From NCBI GenBank assembly GCA_019638075.1, contig JAHBUM010000005.1:1-36805 (forward strand): a stretch of 36,805 nucleotides of DNA. The letters run 5' to 3'. Made by a program: the position numbers and the translations under genes. Position 1 is the stretch's first letter; each line of letters opens with the position of its first letter. Below the pieces are notes generated by a model that saw only the letters and a list, made by a program, of their open reading frames with translations, ran no database searches and had not been told where the DNA came from. Below, piece by piece: positions 3,770 through 20,689 of the stretch. This stretch comes from Flavobacteriales bacterium (GTDB lineage Bacteria; Bacteroidota; Bacteroidia; Flavobacteriales_F; PHOS-HE28).

Positions 3770-6040
3770 ATGGCCGCGAAACGCAGACCAGCCAAGAGGA
3801 AGGGGAAGAAAGCGAAAGGCGGAAGCCTGCCGTGGCTCAGGATCGCGCTCATCTCCGTCGCATTGGTGTTCATCGCCTTCTTCTCGCTGATGCAAGCCGT
3901 GCGCAGCGGCGCATTCGGCGATCTGCCTTCCGAAGAAGAGCTTGCTTCCATCCAGCACGAACAGGCCACACTGGTGTTGGATCGCGATGGCAGGCTGATC
4001 GGGAAACTCTTCGCCGAGGACCGCACCAACGTACGCTACACCGACCTGCCGAAGCATCTGGTGAACGCATTGGTAGCCACGGAGGATGCCCGCTTCTTCA
4101 GCCACCAGGGCGTGGATGGCCGCAGCTATGTGCGTGTGTTCTTCCGCACACTGCTGGGGCGCGACAGGAGCGGTGGCGGCGGCAGCACCATCTCGCAGCA
4201 GATCATCAAGAACCTATACGGGCGCGGGCGGCACGGCCTGCTCACCGTGCCCGTGAACAAGATGAAGGAAGCCTTGGTGGCACAGCGCCTTGAGCGGATA
4301 TTGAAGAAGGAGGATGTGCTCCTGCTCTACTTCAACTCGGTGCCCTTCGGTGAGAACACCTTCGGCATCGAAGCCGCCGCGCAACGCTATTTCGGCAAAC
4401 CGGCGAAACGGCTCAACATCCAGGAGAGCGCCGTGCTCGTGGGCATGCTGAAGGCGAACACGAGCTACAATCCGCGCCTGCATCCCGAGGCATCCAAGAA
4501 CCGCCGCGATCAGGTGTTCGCACAGATGCAACGCAACGGCGACCTGACCGGACATCAGGTGGACAGCCTGAAAGCACTGCCGCTCGTGCTGAACTACAGC
4601 GGCGGCGATGCACTGGACCTCTATGGCTACTTCGTGCGGCACGTGAAGAACGAGGCGCTCGCGATCCTGAAGGAACTGAAGAAGAGCGACGGCACGCCGT
4701 ACGACATCGAGAAGGACGGCCTGCGGATCACCACCACGCTCGATGCCGACCTGCAACGCATGGCGCACATCGCGGCACACCAGCACCTGGCCGCCATGCA
4801 GCCCAAGCTGGATGCGGAACTGAAGGCACGGAAAGCGCGCGGCAACTGGGAGAGGGGCATGGAGCGCAAGGGCGGCGCGAAGTGGAGGAAGAACGCGCGT
4901 GGGATCAGCGAGGTGTACGACCACGCGGCGCGCAGGCTGGACACGCTCACCTATCGCGACAGCCTATGGCACTACCACAAACTGCTGAACGGCGCGGTGC
5001 TGATGATGGAGCCGAACAGCGGAGCCGTACGCGCCTGGGTGGGCGGCAACGATCACCGGTATCTGCCGTACGATCTTGTCACGGCGCGCAGGCCTATCGC
5101 CAGCACGATCAAACCCGTGGTGTATGCCGCCGCATTGGAGCGCGGCCTGCACCCCTGCACCTACCTCGACAACGACCGCAAGACCTACGCGGAGTTCGAC
5201 GGCTGGGCACCGGACAACTTCGACAAGGACACCACCGGCGGACAAGTGGCGATGTGGTACGCACTGACGAAAAGCATGAACCGCCCCACGGTGGACCTGT
5301 ACTTCCGCACCGGCGCGGACACGGTGCGCAGCACGATGGCGGCGCTCGGCCTTCCCACCAAGGATGCGGACAAACCCGCGATGTCGCTCGGTGCCACGGA
5401 CATCGCCCTGAAGGAGATCGTACCGGCGTTCGGGGCCTTCGCCATGCAGGGGCGCATGGTGAAGCCGCAGTACATCGCGAGCATCACCGATGCGCATGGC
5501 AGGGAGCTTTATCAGGCGAAGAGACCCAAGGCCGTTCAAGCCATTTCCGAGAACACCGCCGCCGATGTAACGGCCATGCTGCAAAGCGCGATCGACCAGG
5601 GCACCGACGGGCCACTGCGCTCGCGCTTCGGTGTCACCAGCCCCATCGCGGGCAAGACCGGCACCTCGCAGGACTACGGCGATGCGTGGTTCGTGGCGTA
5701 CACACCGGGACTGGTCATCGGCACCTGGGTGGGCGCCTTCGACAACTCCGTACACTTCAGCAGTTCACAAGGGACCGGCGGCAGCCTCGCACTCCCGATC
5801 GCGGGCAAAGTGCTGAAGCAGGTGGAACAGTCGCCGGAGCTGCGGCAACGCTACATCCGTCCATTCGTGTGGCCCGCCGATCACACGCCCGATCTGGAGT
5901 GCAGGCCCCGCCGCGATCCGGACTTCATCGAGCGCCTGATCCATGATGCGTTCGGCGGGCGGAAGGAACGGCAGACCGACACCACCGGCACCGAGCGCCG
6001 CAACATCTTCGACCGGCTGTTCAAAGGGAAGAAGGACTAA
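3770..6040 (+). CDS. Penicillin-binding protein 1A (bifunctional class A PBP)
   Basis: This is a bifunctional peptidoglycan synthase of 756 residues, anchored in the inner membrane and active in the periplasm. A very basic cytoplasmic tail (residues 1-20) precedes one TM helix (about 23-43). The GT51 glycosyltransferase domain has the catalytic Glu at about 105 in EDARFFSHQGVDG, then GGSTISQQIIKNLYG. The transpeptidase domain has all three motifs: S445 in STIK, SMN at 502-504 and KTGTS from K629. The chosen ATG at 3770 gives the normal short basic tail; upstream in-frame codons fall in the repeat island. The stop overlaps the convergent acyltransferase gene by four bases, leaving no room for a terminator. 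Confidence 0.96.
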   Translation: MAAKRRPAKRKGKKAKGGSLPWLRIALISVALVFIAFFSLMQAVRSGAFGDLPSEEELASIQHEQATLVLDRDGRLIGKLFAEDRTNVRYTDLPKHLVNALVATEDARFFSHQGVDGRSYVRVFFRTLLGRDRSGGGGSTISQQIIKNLYGRGRHGLLTVPVNKMKEALVAQRLERILKKEDVLLLYFNSVPFGENTFGIEAAAQRYFGKPAKRLNIQESAVLVGMLKANTSYNPRLHPEASKNRRDQVFAQMQRNGDLTGHQVDSLKALPLVLNYSGGDALDLYGYFVRHVKNEALAILKELKKSDGTPYDIEKDGLRITTTLDADLQRMAHIAAHQHLAAMQPKLDAELKARKARGNWERGMERKGGAKWRKNARGISEVYDHAARRLDTLTYRDSLWHYHKLLNGAVLMMEPNSGAVRAWVGGNDHRYLPYDLVTARRPIASTIKPVVYAAALERGLHPCTYLDNDRKTYAEFDGWAPDNFDKDTTGGQVAMWYALTKSMNRPTVDLYFRTGADTVRSTMAALGLPTKDADKPAMSLGATDIALKEIVPAFGAFAMQGRMVKPQYIASITDAHGRELYQAKRPKAVQAISENTAADVTAMLQSAIDQGTDGPLRSRFGVTSPIAGKTGTSQDYGDAWFVAYTPGLVIGTWVGAFDNSVHFSSSQGTGGSLALPIAGKVLKQVEQSPELRQRYIRPFVWPADHTPDLECRPRRDPDFIERLIHDAFGGRKERQTDTTGTERRNIFDRLFKGKKD

Positions 6041-19302: not shown

Positions 19303-19570
19303 CATGTGAACATGTGCTCATGTGGCCATGCGGGCATGTGTCCATGTGTCCATGTGCTCATGTGGCCATGACGCTCCTGCCGATGTCGTCTGAACCGACC
19401 AGCACAGCAGCTACCACCACGAAGGCATTCCATGGACACATGGACACATGAAACTTCCTCCACGCCTGCTTGTGACCGCCGTCAGGCATTCCATTGACAC
19501 ATGAAACTCTCCGCCTCGGCTACATTTGACCGCGATCGGGCACATCATGGTCACATGCCCACATGGTCAC
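19303..19570. repeat. Repeat island E3: CATGTGNN octamers, inverted and partly duplicated
   Basis: This island fills the divergent gap between tatD and the GT9 gene. From 19303 to 19370 about eight octamers CATGTGNN run in tandem. Inverted units recur at 19431-19450 (two copies of CATGGACA) and at 19541-19570 (TCACATGCCCACATGG). Two related segments starting AGGCATTCCAT lie at 19423-19460 and 19484-19514 and look like a diverged direct duplication. The promoter box of the GT9 gene lies within the second copy's downstream flank. No ORF is convincing here. Confidence 0.8.
19521..19528 (+). promoter_or_regulatory. -7 box TACATTTG for the GT9 gene
   Basis: This is a perfect TAnnTTTG box inside repeat island E3, 69 nt before the ATG at 19598. 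TTGAC at 19494-19498 lies upstream and could be a -33 element, though the spacing is slightly long. Confidence 0.5.
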
Positions 19571-19597
19571 AACCTGTCCCGGTTACGGGATGTCCAT

Positions 19598-20689
19598 ATG
19601 AAGTTGCTCATCCTCCGCTTCTCGTCCATCGGCGACATCGTGCTCACCAGCCCGGTGCTGCGGTGCGTGAAGCAACAACTGAAGGATGTGGAACTGCATT
19701 TCGCCACGAAAGCCGCCTTCGCCGATCTCGTGCGCTTCAACCCGCATGTGGACAAGGTGCATGAATTGCGCGATGACCTCGGCGCGTTGATCGCGCAATT
19801 GAAGGCGGAGCGGTTCGATGCCGTCATCGATCTGCACCACAACCTGCGCACCGCGCGGGTGAAACGGGCGCTTGGCGTGAAGGCGCACAGCTTCCCGAAG
19901 CTCAACATCGAGAAGTGGCTGATGGTACACTTCAAGATGAACCGCCTGCCGAGGCAGCACATCGTGGACCGCTACATGGGCACGGTCGCGAGCCTCGGTG
20001 TGAAGAACGACGGACAGGGGTTGGACCTCTTCATCCCACCGGATCGCGAGGTGGAATTGGGCACACTCCCCGCTGCGCACCAAGCCGGGTATACCGCGCT
20101 CGCCATCGGCGCGGCACACGCCACCAAGCGCCTGCCACCGCACAAGTTGATCGAGCTCGCCGCGCTGATCGAAGGCCCCATCGTCCTCATCGGCGGGAAG
20201 GAGGACCAAGCCGTTGCCCGGTCGATCGTTTCGGCCACGGGCGGGCGGGTGTTCGATGCCACGGGCCGGTACGACATCCTCGGCAGCGCATCACTCATCC
20301 GGCAGGCCCGCCGCGTGATCGCGCACGACAGCGGTGCCATGCACATCGCCTGCGCGTTCGCCAAAACCTCCGCAGGGTCTCTCGCCCCAACCTCCGCAGG
20401 GTCTCCCGACGAAGGAGGGGACCCTGCGGGGATGATACCGCAGGGTCCTCTGCGGGAGACCCTGCGGAGGTCTGAGGTCATGGAAGTGATGAGCATCTGG
20501 GGCAACACCGTTCCTGCGTTCGGCATGGGGCCGTACATCCCCACGCATCCTGAGCGCGCACGCATCGCGCAGGTGAACGTGGGCTGCCGTCCTTGTTCCA
20601 AGATCGGCTATGAACATTGCCCACAGGGACATTTCCGGTGCATGGAGGATCAGGACCTTCGCGCTATCGCCACTTTCGCGGACGCATGA
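19598..20689 (+). CDS. Glycosyltransferase family 9 (heptosyltransferase-like) with an in-frame repeat insertion
   Basis: The protein has 363 residues with the GT9 fold. The start MKLLILRFSSIGDIVLTSPV is the family N-terminus. The acceptor-side segment DLHHNLRT follows, then the C-terminal nucleotide-sugar region with AIGAAHATKRLPPHKLIELA and VIAHDSGAMHIACAFAK. The usual continuation SIWGNTVPAFGMGPY comes about 37-40 residues later than expected. The interval, about residues 257-297, is encoded by a palindromic repeat (20366-20471) that keeps the frame open. Enzymes of this family usually add heptose to LPS core. The insertion lies in a loop between the donor-binding HDSG segment and the next strand, so activity may or may not survive. 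The start at 19598 excludes the repeat-derived N-terminal extension. Confidence 0.9.
   Translation: MKLLILRFSSIGDIVLTSPVLRCVKQQLKDVELHFATKAAFADLVRFNPHVDKVHELRDDLGALIAQLKAERFDAVIDLHHNLRTARVKRALGVKAHSFPKLNIEKWLMVHFKMNRLPRQHIVDRYMGTVASLGVKNDGQGLDLFIPPDREVELGTLPAAHQAGYTALAIGAAHATKRLPPHKLIELAALIEGPIVLIGGKEDQAVARSIVSATGGRVFDATGRYDILGSASLIRQARRVIAHDSGAMHIACAFAKTSAGSLAPTSAGSPDEGGDPAGMIPQGPLRETLRRSEVMEVMSIWGNTVPAFGMGPYIPTHPERARIAQVNVGCRPCSKIGYEHCPQGHFRCMEDQDLRAIATFADA
20366..20471. repeat. Repeat E4: nested palindrome inside the GT9 coding sequence
   Basis: The core CCGCAGGGTC occurs five times in mixed orientation. An 18-bp perfect inverted repeat joins 20390-20407 (ACCTCCGCAGGGTCTCCC) with 20454-20471. 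An inner 11-bp perfect pair is at 20419-20429 and 20438-20448. An extra direct copy of the left arm lies at 20366-20381. The element is translated in frame within the glycosyltransferase. Confidence 0.9.

Follow-up and report, generated by a model that had tools for sequence, protein, structure and literature searches.

Related palindromic elements

For palindromes that sit in frame within protein genes, Rickettsia is the best-known case; REPs of this kind were reported later from a few further genomes. The Rickettsia palindromic elements (RPEs; Ogata et al. 2000, 2002) are presented, in the passages on them in PMC2229807 and PMC3733652, as in-frame palindromes of 105-146 bp in protein genes, and a Rickettsia Gmk bearing an RPE is active (PMC2229807). 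REPINs and the REP-associated tyrosine transposases (RAYTs) are described in PMC3116915. Among the REPs tagged with GTAG or CGTC, intragenic dimers encoding 20-30 amino acids occur; the CGTC families, which include members in Bacteroidetes, have no dedicated transposase (PMC3733652). A literature search in which most subscription papers were beyond reach returned nothing on elements of this kind from Flavobacteriales.

The element family analysed here shares features with each of these groups. As in the passages on RPEs, its palindromes are dispersed between genes and lie in frame inside conserved, tolerant protein genes. The sequence-only reading had likened the locus to RPEs; this holds as a functional analogy, based on in-frame copies in conserved genes and on the published descriptions of RPEs. 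The family differs in belonging to another phylum and in being built from 36-38-nt hairpins paired face to face, compared with the 105-146 bp given for RPEs in those passages. With REPINs (PMC3116915) it has in common two inverted REP hairpins with a spacer, compensatory changes and a mostly extragenic location, whereas its in-gene share (7/47) is larger. Its size, dimer arrangement and intragenic copies in several species recall the GTAG/CGTC REPs (PMC3733652). In contrast to these, the conserved unpaired end is YARACCT, the stem carries a fixed bulged T and one codon register is preferred. The family is thus outside both described REP tag types. We read it, with a probability of roughly 0.85, as a REP/REPIN-like miniature mobile element whose in-gene survivors were filtered by reading frame and by the presence of a tolerated loop.

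Insertion in the GT9 gene

The window is a 36,805-nt stretch of contig JAHBUM010000005.1 from a Flavobacteriales bacterium (GCA_019638075.1). It contains, at 19598..20689 on the plus strand, a GT9 (heptosyltransferase-like) gene (Pfam PF01075, 7.7e-15) that carries an insertion. The ORF spans 19526-20689, with a likely start at 19598, and is uninterrupted across the insert. The protein scores 98 bits against NCBIfam TIGR02193, which is under the family cut-off, and the best fold matches of its AlphaFold (AF2) model are GT9 3tov and the WaaC/WaaF heptosyltransferases. Alignment with 29 same-genus homologues places the edges of the inserted stretch within 20366..20485 (+), where 40 codons replace one codon of the relatives. 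The net gain is 117 nt, or 39 residues, compared with the 37-40 claimed from the sequence alone. The window protein alone has these residues. In 29/29 homologues the site is empty, and HDSGAMHIA-AFx[KR]P is joined directly to V-SxWGNT (VxSxWGNT). The alignment thereby bears out the proposed in-frame insertion, and the two segments that it splits are indeed adjacent in these homologues, with ...AFxK(P) meeting VxSxWGNT. The named relatives are Flavobacteriales or Bacteroidota metagenome assemblies, in agreement with the suspected Bacteroidota-like host.

A compound palindrome occupies 20366-20471. It is built from five exact CCGCAGGGTC cores, as counted in the sequence-only reading, at 20370, 20394, 20420 (minus strand), 20438 and 20458 (minus strand); the rest of the window contains none. 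A perfect arm pair measures 19 bp (20390-20408/20453-20471), accompanied by a 20-nt pair with 95% identity (20366-20385/20452-20471) and an inner 14-nt pair with 93% (20416-20429/20438-20451). The nested design noted earlier is thus retained, with slightly corrected arm lengths in place of an 18-bp outer and an 11-bp inner pair. The predicted RNA fold reaches -85.1 kcal/mol (z -7.8), equalled by 0/200 shuffles, and the DNA fold has a z of -7.9 against shuffles.

Covariance model R1 resolves the palindrome into two hairpins. Hairpin 1, a REP unit of the long-loop type CCCGACGAAGGAGGG, lies at 20388..20431 on the plus strand (49.9 bits, E 5e-12), and hairpin 2 lies in the opposite orientation at 20436..20473 on the minus strand (57.7 bits, E 3e-14). 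Comparison with other copies showed that the spacer between the hairpin cores (20430..20437) is short, with 8 nt versus 15 nt in the copy in the kynureninase gene, and hairpin 2 is therefore read in a different codon register. A tandem direct repeat at 20358..20405 (+), consisting of 20358-20381 and 20382-20405 with 92% identity, creates an additional left half-arm and adds 8 in-frame codons. This 24-nt repeat suggests that one arm of the GT9 element was duplicated in tandem, in frame, after insertion.

Structure prediction was performed for the GT9 protein and for the kynureninase, each model having a mean pLDDT of 86. The inserts have low confidence, with a pLDDT of about 33 for GT9 residues 258-292 and about 36-37 for kynureninase residues 266-317 (both AF2). 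Most of the remaining residues exceed 80, and the inserts are positioned between confident fold elements. Both inserts are thus predicted to be disordered loops.

An assembly or binning artefact, arising from repeat-induced misjoins, could in principle mimic such an insertion. The genome that contains the window is split into 380 contigs, several of which end near copies. In spite of this, we regard an artefact as very improbable, as the window copy is located mid-contig with both flanks from the same protein, the reading frame is preserved in every in-gene copy, and in-gene copies are found in other assemblies too, including the single-contig genome G010.

The dispersed hairpin family

The core is not confined to the GT9 gene. 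In the window's own genome CCGCAGGGTC has 77 matches (3 for the reversed control) and ACCTCCGCAGGGTC has 26 (0 for the reversed control). Model R1 finds 74 matches in these 3.3 Mb, and matches in 34/35 genomes of the same genus, own genome included, versus 1/23 of other genera. The repeat unit, a hairpin of 36-38 nt, carries YARACCT as its 5' tag, and a T bulges out of its stem. Aligned units follow the pattern AAACCT-CCGCAGGGTC-T-(C..G)-GACCCTGCGG, the bulged T being at a fixed place. The inner stem covaries, with 17 cells changed on both sides compared with 4.4 in shuffles, and sliding the pairing leaves no more than 2 such double-sided changes. The full element, seen at several loci, is a head-to-head arrangement of two hairpins with a length of about 87 or 93 nt, each divisible by three.

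These properties agree with the general description of REPs as imperfect palindromes of 20-60 nt that occur in many copies per genome, mostly extragenically, and with that of REPINs as inverted hairpin pairs with a spacer that are able to fold together. The genome search recovered copies both inside and between genes, with about 40 of the 47 examined own-genome sites outside clear genes and 7 inside them.

A similarity search against plasmid DNA gave no match. A MITE of a DDE insertion sequence would have terminal inverted repeats together with a target-site duplication. The ends of the element are inverted, and no target-site duplication was consistent across copies; a possible ACCT duplication is present in the kynureninase gene of G030 alone. 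ACCT was considered as a target rule, as it occurs at the kynureninase insertion point, and was rejected on the basis that it lies directly upstream of just 5/33 and 2/34 outer arms.

On contig C257 (L079), near-identical REP-bearing stretches at 1895-2087 and 4750-4939, about 2.85 kb apart, flank a 759-codon ORF. By appearance this is a segmental duplication.

Frame and codon register inside genes

Seven insertions in six genes were found in the own genome. The interrupted genes encode GT9, kynureninase, a 3-hydroxyacyl-CoA dehydrogenase (3HCDH), an XdhC-like protein, a glycosyltransferase and an MtaB-like protein, the last with two insertions. Four were called by a coding test on both flanks, the window copy by homology, and the two MtaB-like insertions by open frame. 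The MtaB-like pair is less certain, as one is near a contig edge and the other near the C-terminus. No in-gene copy disrupts the reading frame.

Furthermore, 32/34 cores of the in-gene arrays share one codon register, which encodes TSAGS...DPAEV and is used by 7/7 own-genome insertions; several intergenic arrays have mixed registers. The non-used frames are frequently stop-free too. Assuming equal choice among stop-free frames and ignoring the relatedness of the copies, the chance of this agreement is about 1 in 430. The peptide of the used frame has an AGPST fraction of 0.62-0.68, a negative net charge and few hydrophobic residues, whereas the other frames yield net charges of +3 to +18 and are more hydrophobic. 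In-gene copies of relatives (G010 GT2, G019 lipoprotein-like, G030 and G003) mostly use the TSAGS register as well. The exceptions are hairpin 2 of the window copy and, in two relatives, hairpin 1 of the G030 kynureninase and of the G010 GT2.

With its filled and empty sites, repeated same-codon insertion and clear register preference, the set of 35 species in one genus allows one to test whether protein tolerance does no more than filter such elements or has also shaped them, and to look for the enzyme responsible for their movement. That this is a Bacteroidota REP family with a protein-compatible register that repeatedly hits the same codons, the element itself being shaped by selection on the peptide, is a tentative proposal that we hold to be rather doubtful.

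Another explanation is that the GT9 insert has a selected function, either as an mRNA hairpin for control or as a useful linker. The very stable predicted RNA hairpin inside a coding region and the conservation of the 3HCDH insert across two species are in line with this idea. Against it, the insertions affect six unrelated genes, their length and content vary, they are disordered in the models, and an Rfam search of the element gave nothing that reached its gathering threshold. We therefore consider a selected function unlikely.

Two side observations concern in-gene copies. In G019 (L323 1551-1635), the element comes directly after LLASCGGGD, the lipoprotein signal in a putatively secreted protein, and is read in the TSAGS register. 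On contig C105 (L063 1-110), the MtaB-like gene contains, immediately ahead of the element, another palindromic repeat (GTCATTCCGGGCTTGACCCGGAGTC ... GGAATGACA) that is unrelated to it and across which the frame is open as well.

Probable recurrent insertion at the same codons

Two genes are filled at the same position in more than one species. In the kynureninase gene, the G030 element is located at the same position as that of the own genome, and all other aligned genus members have an empty site. The own kynureninase groups with those of G001, G024 and G027, none of which has the insert, and a single-clade insertion shared by the own genome and G030 was rejected (AU p 0.0005). The 3HCDH site is filled in the own genome, G030 and G003 and empty in all other aligned members. 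Here G030 and G003 are sisters and the own copy stands apart; one shared ancestral insertion was likewise rejected in the clade test (AU p 0.002). The tree search was a fast one, and the clades were tested after a preliminary tree had been inspected. Because same-position inserts occur in non-sister species, repeated insertion at one site seems the simplest reading of these alignments and trees for both genes. Alternatively, the insert may have been transferred between species via short gene conversion; many precise losses are less likely.

The inserts could also represent an old inherited protein segment that was lost in relatives, with the palindrome as a by-product. Some inheritance is apparent, as the 3HCDH insert is common to the sister species G030 and G003 and related in sequence. 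Nevertheless, the same DNA unit is found in unrelated genes and between genes, nearly all relatives are without the GT9 and kynureninase inserts, and the AU tests reject the grouping of insert-bearing rows. An ancestral segment is thus highly improbable.

Within the 3HCDH insert (L072, L130, L210), the hairpin DNA is nearly identical across species, with clearly diverged flanking coding sequence. This hints at homogenisation between copies.

Proposed mechanism and candidate enzymes

The idea of a protein-tolerated mobile element is backed by the dispersal of the family, the frame keeping and the predicted disorder; mobility itself we infer from the distribution and the repeated insertion. The mobile form would be about 87 or 93 nt long and consist of two YARACCT-tagged hairpins opposed head to head. 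It would have spread within one genus of high-GC Flavobacteriales-like bacteria, the surviving copies being mostly intergenic. Survival inside a gene would require a total length that is a multiple of three and a loop-tolerant site. The TSAGS...DPAEV register would be favoured, its peptide being small, acidic and unstructured and the other two either basic and more hydrophobic or interrupted by stops. Following insertion, half-arms would duplicate in tandem, in frame. Half-arm tandem duplications have periods of 17-33 nt across loci, those in the GT9 and kynureninase copies being 24, 27, 30 or 33 nt and in frame, which is compatible with slippage.

Bulged-base hairpins with covariation are typical of the substrates of HUH transposases (IS200/IS605, REP). 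As the family combines a bulged hairpin and paired inverted units with the lack of an own transposase, it is probably non-autonomous and a substrate for an HUH transposase that acts on single strands. The single-stranded hairpin would then be transposed in trans by a RAYT/IS200-like HUH enzyme.

Processes acting between copies (recombination, gene conversion, replication slippage) may be the main route of spread in place of a transposase; we rate this as the less probable course. It could account for the loop types common to different loci, the half-arm duplications and the 3HCDH element DNA that seems less diverged than its flanks, and no cognate RAYT was found in the genus genomes compared. 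Yet empty sites without homology to other copies demand an insertion mechanism, and the bulged, covarying hairpins are of the HUH substrate type.

HUH-type transposase genes are few in the own genome, namely one true RAYT (contig C126) and one RAYT-like gene (contig C290). The latter scores 47 bits against a cut-off of 80 and has a REP pair directly upstream. A link between it and the family was not borne out in the species comparison, as orthologues in other species are without a nearby REP and copy number does not track the gene. Unlike in described REPINs, this REP-RAYT neighbourhood is not kept at orthologues. A link to the C126 RAYT was rejected, as it has GTAG palindromes of its own.

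The C126 locus (L069 1190-2060) comprises the RAYT gene (NF047646, 104 bits) followed by five GTAGCCNCAGGCTAC palindromes. With one further copy of GTAGCCNCAGGCTAC only in the own genome, it forms a separate, small GTAG-type REP/transposase unit.
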